From Burkholderia sp. 9120 (GTDB lineage Bacteria; Pseudomonadota; Gammaproteobacteria; Burkholderiales; Burkholderiaceae), in the NCBI RefSeq assembly GCF_000745015.1, contig NZ_JQNA01000002.1:3658001-3722000 (forward strand): a stretch of 64,000 bases of DNA, in the 5' to 3' direction. The notes under the pieces are model-generated. The model saw only the letters and a list, made by a program, of their open reading frames with translations. It was not told the DNA's origin and made no database searches. Below, piece by piece: positions 56,321 through 64,000 of this stretch (its first letter is position 1; each line of letters opens with the position of its first letter). A program made the position numbers and the translations under genes.

Positions 56321-59300
56321 TCAGTTCGACAGCGACACGTACGGCGAACTGAGCGGCGTCGGCGGGAACGGTTGCAGGCCGGTCTGCTTGCTGAAGCTGT
56401 AGCGCACATAAACCGACGCGAGCCATTCGCGGTATTCATACGCATTGCCGAGCGACGCCGTGGCGCCGAACGCCAGTTGCGGCGCGAGTTGATATTCGCC
56501 GACAGCGCTAAGCGAATACGACACCCCGGTCTTGCTCTGGCCAGGATAAACGGCGTTGCTGTCGAGCCCACCGCCGAGGGAATTGGCCTGTCCTGCCGCG
56601 TTGGCTTGACGACTGGAGCCGTCGTTGAGCGGGAAGTAGTTCGACGCATCCTGCCGGTAATGCTGCACGCCGATCGAGCCCTTCACGTCGTACGTGAACG
56701 CGCCGTTGCGGCCCATCCACTCGATCGGAAGATTCAGGATCATGTACTGCTGCGGGCTGAAATAGCCGCCCTGGCCATACGTGAAGTACGACAGGTTGTT
56801 GTTATAGGTCATCAGCGTGGTGTTCACGCCGACCGTGAGCGTCTGGTCGGCGTCTTTCAGCAGACGCGTATAAACACCGCCGCCGCCCTTGTACGCGTTG
56901 TTGCTCGCGACGTGGTAGCCCATATAGTGCTGATACGAAGCGTTCACGTACAGGCCGCTCGTGCCGTCGTCCCACGCGAGGCTGCCGAGGCCGCCATTGG
57001 ACGTGACGCCGCCCCATTCGAGGCCCGAGCCCGAATCGCGCGCGCCGGCATACGAGAGCAGGCTGTCGGTCACCGCGCGCCGTGCGACGGCGAGCGAGTA
57101 GGTCACCTTGTCGGTGATCGCGCCGTTGTACTGCGCGCCGCCCACGATGTTTTTCTCGGGGAAGCCGAGCGGCGTCACGCCGATATCGGCGCTGATGCTG
57201 CGGCCTTCGTAACCGAGCGACAGGCCCACGCCATTCGCGGTCTGGCTGCCGTACGTGTTGTTGCCGGCCACCGCCGAGATCGCGGACTGCGGGTTGGACA
57301 GACCGGCGCCGAAGCGGGCCAGCGTCGACGTCGTGCCGGCGGCGGTGCCTGCGTCGAGCGTCACCGGCGTGGCCGTGATGACGATGTGGCCGTTGCCCGC
57401 CTTGATGCGTCCCTGAACCGGCGCTTCGATATCGGTGAGGGTGGACAGGCCGTCCTCGCCGGTGCGGTTGCGGAACACGATGCCGCCCGTCACGCTGCTC
57501 GATTGTTCGCGATTGACCTGCGCGAGTTCTTCCGCGACGCCGAGCGTTTGCGTGTTGGCGACGTTCGACGGCGCGTAGTTCGCGCCGTTGCCGTTCGCTC
57601 CCGGCTGCTGCGGGTAATAGGCCTGTGCATAGCCGGTCGGCGGCTGCGGAATGTATGGCTGCTGCTGTTGCGCGTAATAGCCCTGATTCGGATAAGCCTG
57701 CGGCGGCACCGGTTGATACGGCTGCTGGCCATACCCTTGCTGCTGCGGCGGATACGGTTGATAGGGCTGCTGCGCGTAACCCTGTTGTTGCTGCGGATAC
57801 GGCTGCTGGCCGTAATAGCCCTGTTGTTGCGGATAGCCTTGCTGTTGTCCATAGGGCGCTCGCGCGTAGGTCGGCGCACTGCGCTTGCTCTTCGACGCGG
57901 TCTGCTTTTTAGCAGTCGGCCGTTTCGCGTTGGCGTTATAAGGCGCATACGGTTGCGCTTGCATCGAACCGGCGTTGGCCTGCGCTTCGCGCGCGGCCGG
58001 CGACATGGGCCACGGCGTCGCGGCGTAACCATCCGGCGCGCCGTATTGCGCCTGCTGCGGATACCCCGGGTTATACGGCTGTTGCTGCGCATACCCCGGG
58101 TTATACGACTGCTGCGGCGCCTGCATCGGCTGTTGCCCTTGCCCCGGATAAGGCTGCAACGGCGCGCCCGACTGGCTCGACCCATAAGTTTCCTGCCCAT
58201 AGCCACCGGAATTCACGGCGGGGCGAGGCGTGTTGTACGGCAAGGCAGCGGGCGCACCGTTCGGCGTATAAGGCTGCGCGGGCGCCGTATAAGGCGCGAC
58301 GTACGGCGCGGGCTGCGTAGGCGGCGGATAGTTCGGCACGGTCTGTGTCGGCAAGGAGGGCTGCGAGTACGGAAGCGCGGCGCGCGCGGCGGTGTAATTG
58401 CCGCCGCCCAGCGCGGCGTTGTCGGCGTCGGACGGTGTGACGGTAGCGGTTTTGCCTTCGAACGGATTGGTGCCGGGCAGCGGCGTCGCGCCGATCCGGC
58501 GCATGGCCACTTCCCAGCCGCGTGGCACGTTGCTCGCCGGGGTGCGCGGCGCGTTGGCCATCAGCGGCGTATTGGCGGCGACCAGCGAGCGCTGCAGATA
58601 CGTCGACGCGAGCGACAGCTTGCCTTCCGCGCGATACATGCGGCCGACGGTGGCGAGCACGCCCGGATCGCCGGGCGCTGCGCGCAACGCCTGATTCGCG
58701 AGCGATTCGGCGTAGCTGAACTGTTTCGCGCCGACCGCGGCGGGAATCGTGGCCTGCAACAGGTTCAGGTCGTCGGGCTTGCGTTGCAGCGCGACGCGAT
58801 AGCTGGCGAGCGCATTGCGGTCGTCGCCCGCGCTCGAATAAAGACGGCCGAGCGCGGCCTGCAGATCGGGGTTGTCCGGCATGGCCGCGAGCCACGGCGC
58901 GATCACGTCGTAGGCGCTAGCCAGATCGCCGCGCTGGCGCACCGCGTCGCATTGCTTGATGACGATGCCCAGATTCAGATTGCCGAAGTCCGTGCGTTGC
59001 TGCGGCGTCAACTGCATCGCGGCGAGCCGGCGCATCACCATGCCGAGTTCGTTTTCCTGCTGCGTGGCCGACAGAATGCCCGCGTATTGCAGTAGCAGAT
59101 CGGTGTTGCCGGGCGCCGCGTTCATCGCGCTGCGCACGAGGCCCAACGCGCGGTTCGGGTCGCCCGCCTGCTGATAACCGGCGGCGATCACGCCGATCAG
59201 TTCGGGGCTGTTGCCGGCGACCGGTTCGGCCGCATGCAGCGTGGCGAGCGCCTGCTGGTTCTGACCGTTGCGCGCCATCCGCGTCGCGAGATCGGCCTGT

Positions 59301-61069
59301 TGATGCACCCACAGGCGGTGCTGCAAGGTCGTCATCGCGTCGGTGCGCTGCGCGGCGGGAATCCGCTCCAGTTGCGCGAGCCCCGCCGCCCAGTCCTGCG
59401 TTTCCGCCGACAGCAACGCGCTCGCATAGAGCGCGTCGGTCATGTCGGGATGCGCGGCCAGCAGGCCGTCCATCATGCTGCGGGCGTTGGCGACCGCGCC
59501 TTGCCGCACGTAAATGCGCGCGAGGTCGAGCCGCAGCCACGGGTCGTCCGGCGTGTTCAGCAGCGCGTCTTCGAACAGGCTGCGGGCGCTGCCGAGATCG
59601 CCGCGCGCTTCGGCGGCGCGTGCCTGAGCGGCTTGCGCTTCGCCGCGCAGACGGTTGATGCCGCCGGCCTTGGTCTGCTGTTCGGCGTTCAACTGATTGG
59701 CGAACTGCAGCGCCTCGTCGCCGCGGCCTTGCGCGGCGAGCGCGCCGACCAGTCCGCGCACTGCGTCGGGATTGTCGGCCTGGCGGCGCAGCGCCATCCG
59801 GTACGCCTGTTCCGCGCCGACCGGGTCGTTGTTGGCGAGCAGCATTTCGCCGAGCAGCACCTGCGCGGTGACGTCGGACGGATTCAGCGCGATCGCGCGT
59901 TCGAACAGCGACTTCGCTTTCGCGAATTCGCCGTTGCTGCGCGCGCCGATTGCGTCGCTGGTGTAGGTCCAGTAGGTCGCGCTGTCGAGCGCGGTTTTCC
60001 AGCGCGCCGGATTGCCGCTGCGCGACGCGCGTTCCAGATAATTGCGCGCCTCGGCGAAGCGTTCCTGCTTCAGCGCGGCGATCCCCATGCCGCCGAGCGC
60101 GTCGGTGTCGTTCGGGCTGTTGGCCAGCACCGAGGAAAACTTTGAGCGTGCGGTCGCGATGTCGTCTTTATCGAGCGCGGTGAAACCGTCGGCGACGGTA
60201 CGGCCGCGTGCATCCGTCGCGGCGTTCTCTTGCGAGCGGTCGCGCGCCGCCTTGTCCTGCTGCACCATCGAATCGAAGCGCGCCTTGACCGCGGCGTCGT
60301 CGCCGGCGCTTTGCAGATACGACTCGTACAACGCGGAATCGGAGGGCCGCGCGTCGAGCCACAACAGCGCCTGACGCCAGCTCTTTTTCGCCGCCGCGCC
60401 GACCGTGTTGTCGGCGGAGAGTTTTTGCAGACGCGCGATACCGTCGCGCCGCGTGACGTCGCGATACGTTAGATGCTGCGCGTAGGCGAGGGCGTAGCGC
60501 GGGTCGTCGGGGTTGTCGCGCGCGAGCTGTTCGAGGCCGCGGCGCGCCTGGTCCCAGCCTTGCGGCGTGGCCGACAGCGCCTGGTAATACTCGAGCTGCA
60601 ATTCGGGCGTGGCCGGCTTGCCGTTCAGCGCGCGCTGGTATTGCTCCACCGCGCTCGCGCTCTGGCCGCTTTGCGCGAGCCGCCGCGCGTCGTTCACGGT
60701 CTGGTCGCGCACGCTCGATTCGCCCAGACGCCGGCCGAGTTCATCCATATTCGGGTAGTTCGGCGCGACCGCTTTCAGGCGCGCCAGATATTGCTGCGCG
60801 CCCGCGCCGTCCTTGCGGTCGGCGAGCACCATGCCCATGCCGTAGAGCGCGTCGGGCTGCTTCGGATCGAGCCGCAGCACCTTCAGCCAGGCCTGCTCGG
60901 CGAGATCGCCGCGCTGATGCGACTGCCAGTACTTGCCCTGATCGATCAGCACGTTCAGCGGATCTTTCGACGCCTGCGCCAGCACGTCGGGCGCGGCGGT
61001 CGCCACATAGCAGACCGCCGTGACGCTCAGTGCGAAGCGCAATGACAACGCGAGGGCGCTCAATCGCAT
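56321..61069 (-). CDS. bcsC: Cellulose synthase operon protein C (TPR plus outer-membrane barrel)
   Basis: Exports bacterial cellulose through the outer membrane. The 1582-residue product starts at the ATG at 61069 with a signal peptide (ending APDVLAQA). About 850 residues of tandem TPRs follow in the periplasm, for example LDPKQPDALYGMGMVLADRKDG and NPDAVRGLVGALAAQGRGDEAL. Then come a long low-complexity linker (about 905-1170) and a C-terminal BCSC domain forming the barrel, with TLTDIEAPVQGRIKAGNGHIV, DIGVTPLGFPEKNIVG and a final VYVRYSFSKQ. The start overlaps the bcsZ stop by ten bases. The frame stays open to 61585 but only in the antisense of bcsZ reading, so that is rejected. Confidence 0.95.
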   Translation of the reverse strand: MRLSALALSLRFALSVTAVCYVATAAPDVLAQASKDPLNVLIDQGKYWQSHQRGDLAEQAWLKVLRLDPKQPDALYGMGMVLADRKDGAGAQQYLARLKAVAPNYPNMDELGRRLGESSVRDQTVNDARRLAQSGQSASAVEQYQRALNGKPATPELQLEYYQALSATPQGWDQARRGLEQLARDNPDDPRYALAYAQHLTYRDVTRRDGIARLQKLSADNTVGAAAKKSWRQALLWLDARPSDSALYESYLQSAGDDAAVKARFDSMVQQDKAARDRSQENAATDARGRTVADGFTALDKDDIATARSKFSSVLANSPNDTDALGGMGIAALKQERFAEARNYLERASRSGNPARWKTALDSATYWTYTSDAIGARSNGEFAKAKSLFERAIALNPSDVTAQVLLGEMLLANNDPVGAEQAYRMALRRQADNPDAVRGLVGALAAQGRGDEALQFANQLNAEQQTKAGGINRLRGEAQAAQARAAEARGDLGSARSLFEDALLNTPDDPWLRLDLARIYVRQGAVANARSMMDGLLAAHPDMTDALYASALLSAETQDWAAGLAQLERIPAAQRTDAMTTLQHRLWVHQQADLATRMARNGQNQQALATLHAAEPVAGNSPELIGVIAAGYQQAGDPNRALGLVRSAMNAAPGNTDLLLQYAGILSATQQENELGMVMRRLAAMQLTPQQRTDFGNLNLGIVIKQCDAVRQRGDLASAYDVIAPWLAAMPDNPDLQAALGRLYSSAGDDRNALASYRVALQRKPDDLNLLQATIPAAVGAKQFSYAESLANQALRAAPGDPGVLATVGRMYRAEGKLSLASTYLQRSLVAANTPLMANAPRTPASNVPRGWEVAMRRIGATPLPGTNPFEGKTATVTPSDADNAALGGGNYTAARAALPYSQPSLPTQTVPNYPPPTQPAPYVAPYTAPAQPYTPNGAPAALPYNTPRPAVNSGGYGQETYGSSQSGAPLQPYPGQGQQPMQAPQQSYNPGYAQQQPYNPGYPQQAQYGAPDGYAATPWPMSPAAREAQANAGSMQAQPYAPYNANAKRPTAKKQTASKSKRSAPTYARAPYGQQQGYPQQQGYYGQQPYPQQQQGYAQQPYQPYPPQQQGYGQQPYQPVPPQAYPNQGYYAQQQQPYIPQPPTGYAQAYYPQQPGANGNGANYAPSNVANTQTLGVAEELAQVNREQSSSVTGGIVFRNRTGEDGLSTLTDIEAPVQGRIKAGNGHIVITATPVTLDAGTAAGTTSTLARFGAGLSNPQSAISAVAGNNTYGSQTANGVGLSLGYEGRSISADIGVTPLGFPEKNIVGGAQYNGAITDKVTYSLAVARRAVTDSLLSYAGARDSGSGLEWGGVTSNGGLGSLAWDDGTSGLYVNASYQHYMGYHVASNNAYKGGGGVYTRLLKDADQTLTVGVNTTLMTYNNNLSYFTYGQGGYFSPQQYMILNLPIEWMGRNGAFTYDVKGSIGVQHYRQDASNYFPLNDGSSRQANAAGQANSLGGGLDSNAVYPGQSKTGVSYSLSAVGEYQLAPQLAFGATASLGNAYEYREWLASVYVRYSFSKQTGLQPFPPTPLSSPYVSLSN
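57540..58350 (-). repeat. Gln/Tyr/Pro-rich low-complexity region inside bcsC
   Basis: DNA for a linker of about 265 residues between TPRs and barrel. Repeating units are variants of YNPGYAQQ, QQPYPPQQQGY and GYGQQPYQP. The DNA repeats are visible, for example ATACCCCGGGTTATACG twice near 58063-58110. A basic patch (ANAKRPTAKKQTASKSKRSA) sits in the middle and divides it into a Pro/Tyr half and a Gln/Tyr half. Composition resembles prion-like domains. Confidence 0.85.
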
Positions 61070-62250
61070 GCATTTCTCCAGCCAGGCACGAGACGGCCGG
61101 CTTCGTCGAAGCGATAGCGGCCGTCGATAAACCCCGTGCCGAACAAACCCAGCACACGATCGTAGTAAACCGGCTCGCGGCCGGGCACATTGGCGTCGAG
61201 CGCCGCGAGATGGGTGCGCGCGAGGCCGAGGCCGCGCTCGTCGCCGAGCGACTTGAAATACGGCGCGAGCGCGCCCCAGTAACTGAGCGGACCTTCGCCG
61301 CTGGCCGTGCCGCTGGTCGACGAGACTTTCTCCGGCGGAATGCCGGTTTGCGCGACCTTCGCGCGCATGCCGCCGAGCGCCGCGAGCCAGGGTTTGGCGA
61401 GCGGATCGGCGGGCGAAGTCAGACCGGCCCACAGATAGACGCGGATCGCGTCGTAGCTGCCGGTGTCGCCGTTTTTCGGATCCACCACGAACTGGCCGTT
61501 CTGCCACGCCGCCCAGTCGGGCGAGAAGCCTTGCGGCGCGGTGGTCTTGATCAGCTTGTAGGCGCTCTCGGCGAGCTTGGCCCACGGACCGTTCGGCTGT
61601 TCATGGGCGAGCGCGCGCAACACCGGCAAGGGCAGATAGCTCGGATTCAGACGCGTCACGCCGCCCACCTTGAAGCCTTGCGGTCCCGGCAGCAGCATCG
61701 GGCCGACGCCCGGCAAGGTAGTCATTTCCTGGCGCGCGATCTGCGTGGCCAGCGCCTGGCCGAGTTGCGTGTAGGTGGGGTCTTTCCACAGACGGCCGGC
61801 TTGCAGCAGGTCGTAGGCGATCCACAGATCGGAGTCGGAGGCGGAATTCGGATCGAGTACGCCGAACGAGCCGTCCGGTTTTCTGCCCCATTGCCACGAC
61901 GGCAGCCGCATGTTTTGCGCGTCGAACTGATTGTCCGCGAGGTTGGTGCGGGTCCACGCGAGCAGCCGGTCGAAGGTCGCGCGGTCGTTCGCGACCAGCG
62001 CGAAGAACAGACCGTACGACTGACCTTCGGAGGTGGTTTGCTGGGTCGGCGTGGAGTAGTCGATCACGCGGCCGTCCGCCTGCACGAAACGTTCGACGAA
62101 GCGCCGGTAGCCGGTCCACTCACCGCACGCCCCGGACGCCGCGGCTGCGGGATTCACCTGCGCCACCTTCACGAGATTGGCAAAACTCGCCGACGCGGCG
62201 AGGCCGAGCGTCAATGCGAGGCATGCCTTCCGGTTGATTCGAACCTGCAT
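61060..62250 (-). CDS. bcsZ: Periplasmic cellulase of the cellulose operon (GH8)
   Basis: Endo-beta-1,4-glucanase that trims or releases cellulose in the periplasm. The 396-residue product has a signal peptide (ending SFANLVKVA). The GH8 catalytic acid is in TTSEGQSYGLFFALV near residue 75, and the base region is GDTGSYDAIRVYLWAGL near 260. An (alpha/alpha)6 fold is expected. GAGGAC lies before the ATG. It follows bcsB by nine bases and overlaps bcsC by ten, so translation of the three is coupled. Confidence 0.95.
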   Translation of the reverse strand: MQVRINRKACLALTLGLAASASFANLVKVAQVNPAAAASGACGEWTGYRRFVERFVQADGRVIDYSTPTQQTTSEGQSYGLFFALVANDRATFDRLLAWTRTNLADNQFDAQNMRLPSWQWGRKPDGSFGVLDPNSASDSDLWIAYDLLQAGRLWKDPTYTQLGQALATQIARQEMTTLPGVGPMLLPGPQGFKVGGVTRLNPSYLPLPVLRALAHEQPNGPWAKLAESAYKLIKTTAPQGFSPDWAAWQNGQFVVDPKNGDTGSYDAIRVYLWAGLTSPADPLAKPWLAALGGMRAKVAQTGIPPEKVSSTSGTASGEGPLSYWGALAPYFKSLGDERGLGLARTHLAALDANVPGREPVYYDRVLGLFGTGFIDGRYRFDEAGRLVPGWRNACD

Positions 62251-62259
62251 AAACAGTCC

Positions 62260-64000
62260 TCAGTCCTTCAGGCGGCGCGCGGCGACCGAGCGCAGCGTCC
62301 GGTAGAACAGGCCCGCGATGATCAGCGCGGCGAGCACGCCGCCCAGCATCAACAGCAGCGGATGCGACGACAGCGCCCAGCGCAGATACTCCTGCGGCGA
62401 CAGATGGCCGATGTAATACGCTTCGCCGTTCGACGTGATGGTCACGTTGCGGCCGTGAATCACGGCCATCGCGCCTTGAATTTCCGGCAGCACGTCGGCA
62501 TCGAGCAGCGCGGTTGACAGATCCGCGTCCGACTGGCCGGCCGCGCTCACCAGCGCGACCGCGCTGCGGTTCTTCTGCAACGGCGACTCGAAACCGGTCA
62601 GCAGCGCGTCGCCGTTCGAGCTCACCAGCGTCAGGTCGGCGCGCGCCGGCGTGCGTTCGACACCGCGCTCGCCGTGCCACCAGTCCTCGAGTTTGAAGAC
62701 GATGTCGGAGAGCTGGAAGGTGCGCGAATCGCCGTCGCTGGAGAACGGCATCGACTTGGCCCAGCGTTGCAGCAGCGGCTGCTTGCCCGGCGCGCCGAAA
62801 ATCAGCAGGTCTTTATTGGCGTACTTGTCGACGTCGTCCGCGGTGCCGACGCTCACGCCGTTCACCGGATAACCGGTCGACGCGCCCATGCGGCCCATGG
62901 TCAGCAAAAACAGGCTGTAGTCGCTCGAATCGGCGTCGTTCGGCAGGATCGCGGCGGTCTCGGAGAGGTCCGCCATGCGCGTGAACGGGAAGCCGCTATT
63001 GGCGAACGCGGCCAGATCGGGCAGTGCCATGTAATGCGGGAACGACGACAGATCGATCGTCGAATTCGGATCGATTGCGCCGACCACGTTGTCGAGCAGA
63101 CGGCCGTGGCATTCGCCGGTATCGGGAATGTCGTAGTAGAAGTGCAGGCGCACCTGCGCGCGCGGCGTCAGCAGCAGCGGCGGAATGTAGACGGTGCGGC
63201 GCGCCTCGGCGGTCCTGTCCGGCAACACGCGCGCGAAGTAATGGCTCAGATCGAACACGGAGGCGGACTCCGCCGGAATCGGCAGGGCCTGCACGAAGCC
63301 GTTGTTCACGCTCACGTTCAACGACGACCGGTCGACGTGCGGGCGCACCGTGTAGCGGTAGCGCAGATCGATCGGCGCGCCCTTGGTGTGCCACATGAAC
63401 AGATCGGGCGGCACGCGCAGATTCACGCGCACCGCGTCGGCGTCGTAGCCTGACACGGTCAGATCGCGCGCGTCGGCGAGTTCGCCGAAGCGCACCGGAC
63501 GATGGGTCGGCAACCAGTTCGGCGCGTCGTACGGCGCGCGCGGCCCGAGTTCGTTCAACTGCGTGATGGTTGCGCTCGCACCCGTCAGCGTGTTCTGGCC
63601 GATGCCGAGCGCCTTGGCGGCGGTCTTCAGTTCGGCTTCGGTGCGCCCGAGCACGAGCAGCAGCTTGCCGCGCGCCGGCGCTTCGCGATCCACCACCGCG
63701 ATGGTCGGACCGGAGATCGCCGGAATCTCGATGCCGGCCGGGCGCTGGTCGGAAGTGGCGAACACCACGGCGTTGCCCGACAACGGCGCGTTGTCCAGTT
63801 GCGCCGGAAACACCGCGCCGCGATAACCGGCCAGCGCGCCGAACCACGAGGCGACGATGCCGCCCGCTTCGAGCGTTGCGGCGCCCGGCTTTTGCGGGAA
63901 CACGAACGGCAGTTCGAGCCGACGCACGTCGCGGCGGTCGAAGAACGGCTGCGGCAGCGCCGCCAGATCCGGCTTGCTGGCGAGCGAAGCGTAGGTCAGA
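62260..64000 (-). CDS. bcsB: Cellulose synthase regulatory subunit B (partial, 5' end outside the window)
   Basis: Periplasmic, membrane-anchored partner of the BcsA synthase. 579 residues are visible; the frame is open through the window edge at 64000, so the N-terminus is missing. Landmarks are RRLELPFVFPQKPGA, the VVFATSDQRPAGIEIP flavodoxin-like block, PIDLRYRYTVRPHVDRSSL, FYYDIPDTGECHGRLLD and the C-terminal anchor LLLMLGGVLAALIIAGLFY followed by a basic tail. The first Met of the shorter frame (63927) is a GTG inside the gene, not its start. bcsA should lie upstream, beyond the window. Confidence 0.95.
   Translation of the reverse strand, partial: LTYASLASKPDLAALPQPFFDRRDVRRLELPFVFPQKPGAATLEAGGIVASWFGALAGYRGAVFPAQLDNAPLSGNAVVFATSDQRPAGIEIPAISGPTIAVVDREAPARGKLLLVLGRTEAELKTAAKALGIGQNTLTGASATITQLNELGPRAPYDAPNWLPTHRPVRFGELADARDLTVSGYDADAVRVNLRVPPDLFMWHTKGAPIDLRYRYTVRPHVDRSSLNVSVNNGFVQALPIPAESASVFDLSHYFARVLPDRTAEARRTVYIPPLLLTPRAQVRLHFYYDIPDTGECHGRLLDNVVGAIDPNSTIDLSSFPHYMALPDLAAFANSGFPFTRMADLSETAAILPNDADSSDYSLFLLTMGRMGASTGYPVNGVSVGTADDVDKYANKDLLIFGAPGKQPLLQRWAKSMPFSSDGDSRTFQLSDIVFKLEDWWHGERGVERTPARADLTLVSSNGDALLTGFESPLQKNRSAVALVSAAGQSDADLSTALLDADVLPEIQGAMAVIHGRNVTITSNGEAYYIGHLSPQEYLRWALSSHPLLLMLGGVLAALIIAGLFYRTLRSVAARRLKD

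Follow-up and report, generated by a model that had tools for sequence, protein, structure and literature searches.

In E. coli, the N-terminus of BcsC binds BcsB, the TPR solenoid is flexibly attached to the outer-membrane barrel, and a putative cello-oligosaccharide is reported at the last TPRs (PMC11379886). In type I cellulose synthesis systems, BcsD together with the proline-rich BcsP or BcsH is reported to form intracellular cytoskeletal assemblies with the synthases (PMC11470070), and two older papers placed BcsD in the periplasm (PMC7811197, PMC5638805). No account of the linker described here was found in searches of open-licence papers, including the available parts of PMC11379886, PMC11470070, PMC5638805, PMC7112194, PMC7811197, PMC4606120 and PMC10133297, and a mention elsewhere is possible. 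Here, we describe a BcsC encoded in a 64,000-nucleotide stretch of Burkholderia sp. 9120 DNA (the window), whose TPR solenoid and barrel are joined in frame by a long tether that is predicted to be disordered.

The bcsC locus and its linker

The genes bcsB, bcsZ and bcsC are listed with their features in Table 1; bcsA, bcsQ, bcsP and bcsD lie on the same strand as bcsC, farther upstream and beyond the window (locus L250). The most likely start of bcsC is the ATG at 61069 (MRLSALAL..., signal-peptide-like by eye), which overlaps the bcsZ stop. The BCSC_C barrel domain scores 379 bits against a cut-off of 23.5, and this, as well as the N-terminal TPR solenoid and the adjoining bcsZ and bcsB, places the protein among BcsC as defined by PF05420. 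Its score of 433 bits falls short of the cut-off of 858 for the E. coli-type equivalog NF008520/PRK11447. As bcsD is present (Cellsynth_D, E = 8e-26 in L250), the operon is a type I Bcs operon, and it also encodes the type I partner BcsP (NF040718, 86.8 bits; cut-off 55). The nearest named proteins to BcsC, among the best 120 of 493, are from Paraburkholderia at 98% identity; none of these was put into an alignment. An open frame of 907 codons also runs antisense to bcsC (window 56372-59095, forward strand) and is probably a by-product of codon usage.

At an E-value of 0.001 or below, Pfam reports only TPR/ARM families and BCSC_C on this protein, the latter located after the linker, and the linker itself carries no carbohydrate- or peptidoglycan-binding Pfam domain. 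The original prediction, which had described a long linker between TPRs and barrel, was right about its existence within a single open bcsC gene. The extent given then, 57540..58350, captures the core but stops about 90-140 bases short of the TPR end, so that a conserved NPF island falls outside it. Over the whole linker, P (58), Q (56), A (49), Y (37) and G (31) are the common residues, and in the core described earlier (approximately residues 907-1177) Q, Y, P, G and A make up 76%. The linker DNA contains tandem units with lengths of 45, 30 and 18 bp, present in about 2.2-2.3 copies each. A prion-like, Q/N-rich region has at least 30 Q+N in 80 residues. The best 80-residue stretch of the linker holds 31, compared with 17 in the runner-up among 163 six-frame stretches of at least 150 codons in the window; the claims of a repeat-containing linker and of prion-like composition are borne out, and the central basic patch, also claimed, could be located. 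A search of the own genome with residues 955-1160 returned the own locus as the sole match at E <= 1, although the bias correction of HMMER may mask matches based on composition only.

To model the structure, AlphaFold2 was run on residues 710-1582 with 61 sequences (alignment A1: 60 of 81 prepared references plus the window protein), giving a mean pLDDT of 66.5. The TPRs and most of the barrel are predicted with pLDDT of about 80-95, and the best solved structural matches of the model are the E. coli BcsC structures 6tzk, 9b8a and 9b8h. The NPF island is the sole part of the linker with middling model confidence; no order is predicted at the other islands, and a predicted helix leads into the barrel.

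Table 1. Features of the bcsC locus in window coordinates, with residue numbers of BcsC
Feature	Residues	Coordinates	Strand	Evidence and remarks
bcsC	1-1582	56321..61069	-	Outer-membrane protein for cellulose export, 1582 aa, built of TPR solenoid, linker and barrel; BCSC_C E 2.3e-113
TPR solenoid	~36-834	58568..60964	-	TPR families, TPR-HMM; start by eye; last TPRs pLDDT ~90
Whole linker	861-1186 (326 residues)	57512..58489	-	Composition, alignment, AlphaFold2
Predicted disordered part	878-1175	57545..58438	-	AlphaFold2 pLDDT < 50, model residues 169-466
Island 1, VPRGWEVAMRRIGATPLPGTNPFEGKTA, NPF motif	848-875	58445..58528	-	Linker alignment; residues 860-879 pLDDT ~66
Island 2, QTVPNYPPPTQPAPYVAPY	909-927	58289..58345	-	Alignment; PY[VTS]xPY in 97/125 linkers
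Island 3, GGYGQETYGSSQSGAPLQPYPGQ	955-977	58139..58207	-	Linker alignment
Island 4, YAATPWPMSPAAREAQA	1015-1031	57977..58027	-	Alignment; PWP in 125/125, WPMSP in 115/125
Basic patch, KRPTAKKQTASKSKR	1049-1063	57881..57925	-	Positive net charge in the span separating islands 4 and 5, in 99/99 linkers with both ends found (of 125)
Densest Q/Y/P repeats	1076-1155	57605..57844	-	31 Q+N per 80 residues; composition scan, DNA repeats
Island 5, PYIPQPPTGYAQ, within repeats	1138-1149	57623..57658	-	[YF][IV]PxPP in 120/125
Helix ahead of barrel	1171-1189	57503..57559	-	AlphaFold2, model helix 462-480
Outer-membrane barrel	~1192-1558	56396..57496	-	BCSC_C, AlphaFold2; Foldseek best match 6tzk E 5.5e-32
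bcsZ		61060..62250	-	GH8 endoglucanase, same operon as bcsC; Glyco_hydro_8 E 3.3e-61
bcsB		62260..64000	-	Runs past window end; BcsB E 3.1e-161

Conservation of the linker in close relatives

In a genus sample, 102 of 117 genomes contained a BCSC_C match, and 247 barrel-bearing loci gave 192 distinct barrels. All 124 of these barrels that are at least 50% identical to our own are preceded by a linker of at least 250 residues (counted from the last TPR-HMM match to the barrel) with NPF and PWP. This count used barrel identity alone, whereas the 125 linkers of the motif set were chosen by length (at least 270 residues), so that linker presence in that set is true by definition. One locus search is tilted towards linker-bearing loci, as two of its six patterns were taken from the linker; the other locus searches used the barrel family. 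As every close barrel carries a long linker, the feature is ordinary for the clade and no oddity of this strain. The original prediction had set it apart from known BcsC, a view that was to be given up if most BcsC of the family had the same linker; among close relatives they do. The accompanying statement that known BcsC proteins have short linkers applies to the E. coli type and fails for BcsC generally.

Linker length, measured from the last TPR-HMM match to the barrel, ranges from 290 to 552 residues in 116 relatives, a measure that takes in about 50 residues of barrel entry and fails where TPRs go undetected (e.g. L206, L213, L214, L221, L222, L227, L240-L242, L244 and L247-L249). Near strains differ by this measure, as had been anticipated, with 380, 384, 385 and 386 residues in L001, L074, L162 and L138. 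MAFFT alignment of 70 linkers, retained from 180 after redundancy filtering, resolved islands 1 to 5 and a sixth at the pre-barrel helix (Table 1), separated by variable repeats. In shuffled versions of the 125 linkers, NPF arises at a rate of 0.02 and WPMSP at 0, compared with 0.31 for PW alone.

Between our own gene and 16 chosen relatives, dN/dS was 0.07-0.21 in the linker, 0.03-0.23 in the barrel and 0.04-0.16 in the TPRs, values possibly biased by alignment near indels. The same pairs show 3-13 indel events in the linker and 0-2 in the TPRs or barrel. The TPRs of L037 (dN/dS 0.54; 21 indel events) failed to align properly and are excluded from these ranges. Because dN/dS is barrel-like while the linker takes nearly all indels, its length is free and its residues and short islands are kept. 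Judged from these comparisons, the linker is under purifying selection with free length throughout the clade.

The islands are more conserved than the Q/Y richness, since L197 and L200 retain them with only 3% Q and 3% Y; the Q/Y repeats are thus dispensable in at least one lineage.

We reject a pseudogene or an assembly artefact, both for the window and for the relatives that were fetched, as the frames are open through the linker, dN/dS is low and the linker is present clade-wide; the out-of-frame outcome named in the original prediction is therefore not seen in general. The fetched copies were limited to open frames of at least 400 residues, and a few damaged or cut copies exist outside this set, with a stop inside the barrel match in G008 and short open frames in G041 and G090. 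The open frame of L037 (G101) starts about 150 residues further in than that of L036 (717 vs 869 residues ahead of the linker), and this gene may be altered upstream.

Association with bcsD across BcsC lineages

To relate linker class to operon type, we located bcsD around 123 Burkholderiaceae BcsC genes, a set that excludes the named loci L112-L189 and loci from L223 on. A bcsD gene lies within 20 kb of 81/83 long-linker and 5/7 mid-linker genes, compared with 0/31 short-linker genes and 0/2 with undetected TPRs. In the two long-linker exceptions bcsD is on another contig, and in the two mid-linker exceptions (L221, L222) the model apparently missed TPRs, by eye. Several genomes hold BcsC of different kinds, in which the barrel follows the last TPR detected at a distance of 379 and 54 residues in G114, 377 and 53 in G013, 391 and 53 in G035, 340 and 116 in G217 (TPRs missed in the latter), 333 and 63 in G238, and 504 and 187 in G132.

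In a second comparison, 61 BcsC with more context were selected to span classes rather than at random, and the 560 residues ahead of the barrel were scanned for NPF. The motif is present in 30/30 with bcsD nearby and 6/31 without, where "without" means none by our own BcsD model in the stretch examined (usually 20 kb and at most about 28 kb); L304, L306 and L312, on short contigs, were left out. The six comprise five Pseudomonas-like BcsC (L284, L285, L288, L295, L300) and L303. A disorder measure based on composition only pointed in the expected direction, with a median of 160.5 (n = 30) with bcsD vs 63 (n = 31) without, but it picked TPR pieces in several rows (e.g. L276m, L286, L270 and many rows without bcsD) and is given no weight here. 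By eye, linkers from outside Burkholderiaceae have a shorter length and lack the Q/Y richness.

A tree built from 71 barrel rows, 68 of them different, has two deep clades. All 28 rows of the first are without bcsD, with NPF in 0 of its 23 rows counted, and bcsD accompanies 35 of the 43 rows of the second. L305 and L308 belong to the second clade and lack NPF, and in the clade without NPF, L299, L301 and L309 apparently have linkers of their own, by eye. The bcsD label requires at least four changes on this tree, and 0/500 shuffles were as low, although near-copies alone would cluster a label; since only four changes are needed, few independent events back the tie. Long tethers appear to go mostly, not strictly, with bcsD, an association that favours a linker role tied to scaffolded synthases. 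We also considered the linker as a substitute for missing TPRs and rejected this as a full account: the median TPR span is 763 (n = 14) vs 802.5 in the short class (n = 6, two with missed TPRs), and the linkers differ by more than 300.

Some loci deserve separate mention. L259 and L260 (G233, G226) are linker-class operons with bcsD in which no bcsZ was found in 20 kb; their islands are kept with little Q/Y. Each of these two genomes has a single GH8 match, a few kb from the other bcsC, and because of this GH8 gene elsewhere a tie between Q/Y content and bcsZ stays a weak lead. A second bcsD-linked BcsC class, L215 and L217 (G131, G166), has Ser/Thr/Ala-rich linkers, and neither genome has a GH8 match. 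L276 (G1149) offers an internal control for linker function, in that a type I and a type II bcsC stand tail to tail there, their barrels separated by about 2.4 kb. Insertion sequences adjoin type I bcs operons on plasmids of Enterobacter kobei (L270; bcsO, Q, A, B, C, D and GH8) and E. coli (L272; bcsO, A, C, D and GH8 in the gene table), and 135/180 plasmid records with a BcsC-like match are from Escherichia.

Possible roles of the linker and comparison with known systems

Our preferred reading, tentative at a probability of about 0.42, is that the linker is a conserved disordered tether of type I (bcsD-linked) BcsC, which would free the barrel from the solenoid held by scaffolded synthases, with the Q/Y/P repeats as weak stickers. 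The solenoid would be held at its N-terminus by BcsB as in E. coli (PMC11379886), and the synthases would be assembled by BcsD and BcsP into cytoskeletal arrays, as described for type I systems (PMC11470070). A long tether could then uncouple each barrel from its own synthase, leaving it free to move and to pack with neighbouring barrels, and as a consequence of such packing, we propose, cellulose chains would exit close together. The repeats might act as length-insensitive stickers that contact each other or the glucan as it emerges, while docking would fall to the islands (NPF, PWP, YIPxPP and the basic patch). If BcsD is periplasmic (PMC7811197, PMC5638805), the mechanism would change.

Cellulose binding, a peptidoglycan tether and clustering, the roles offered by the original prediction, are possible, and specific forms of each can be weighed. 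Tyr and Trp of the linker could form a sleeve, stacking on the glucan chain as it passes from solenoid to barrel. This would suit the 37 Tyr in 326 residues, the PWP of every class linker, the PWQ in 8/8 Enterobacterales type I BcsC and the putative cello-oligosaccharide of E. coli BcsC (PMC11379886), but L197 and L200 have so little Tyr, several bcsD-linked BcsC (class A', L291, L292, L294, L296) have no PW in the linker, and no carbohydrate-binding Pfam domain is present; we regard such guidance as unlikely. In a strong form of the sticker idea, the Q/Y/P repeats would self-associate and gather the export pores into periplasmic clusters, for which the CsgF condensate (PMC10133297) and the prion-like regions of secretins (PMC4606120) are precedents. 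The Q+N threshold is reached here and in 50/116 unique full-length relatives; however, 66/116 fall below 30 (median 29) and Q/Y is nearly lost in L197 and L200, and we regard this strong form as quite unlikely. The unfolded stretch and basic patch could instead thread or grip the cell wall, as the linker is proline-rich, periplasmic by position and positive at the patch wherever this could be delimited. Against this decidedly improbable option, a peptidoglycan-binding Pfam domain is lacking, and where one genome holds both kinds, the BcsC with a short linker passes through the same wall.

Two further alternatives fare worse. Tandem DNA units, many indels and the wide range of lengths would fit low-complexity drift by replication slippage, tolerated but useless; the low, barrel-like dN/dS (with its possible bias near indels) and islands far above shuffled rates render this very unlikely. 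Were the older placement of BcsD right (PMC7811197, PMC5638805), periplasmic BcsD could dock directly on the linker, and the two do co-occur. BcsD is treated as an intracellular scaffold in PMC11470070, however, and the linkers of different bcsD-linked lineages share little besides NPF, so that we consider direct docking extremely improbable.

A selected disordered tether bears on how the intracellular arrangement of synthases is matched to the export pores of the outer membrane. Marked by NPF and found mostly beside bcsD, it is a definite element that can be removed, shortened or exchanged, and genomes with both tethered and untethered BcsC provide natural controls. A wider and distinctly doubtful proposal is that there are two ancient exporter architectures, one rigid and one NPF-tethered, the latter having evolved with BcsD scaffolds, and that in Burkholderiaceae the tether is a periplasmic prion-like sticker clustering pores to match the BcsP/BcsD rows; if so, fibre order would be set on both sides of the envelope.

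E. coli BcsC (9b8a, 9b8h, 6tzk), from a type II Bcs system, shares the TPR solenoid and barrel with the BcsC described here, but in its E. coli-type relatives NPF is missing and the linker, judged by eye, is short. The operon, with bcsD, bcsP, bcsQ, bcsA, bcsB, bcsZ and bcsC, resembles type I systems with BcsD and BcsP or BcsH scaffolds, for which the available parts of PMC11470070 and PMC7811197 deal with scaffolds and the cortical belt rather than a BcsC linker. All eight Enterobacterales type I BcsC (L270, L272, L276 minus, L278, L283, L286, L287, L298) have NPF, PWQ and a disordered-looking pre-barrel stretch; unlike our own, their linkers are about 70 residues by eye and not Q/Y-rich, and their [ML]PWQ motif may correspond to the PWP island. 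The CsgF condensate at the curli pore is another case of prion-like composition at a fibre exporter of the outer membrane, although CsgF is a separate surface protein whose phase separation was shown experimentally (PMC10133297). Finally, the secretins, a family unrelated to BcsC in which prion-like regions are a prediction only, carry such a stretch between a periplasmic and an outer-membrane domain (PMC4606120), the same position that it takes in this BcsC.
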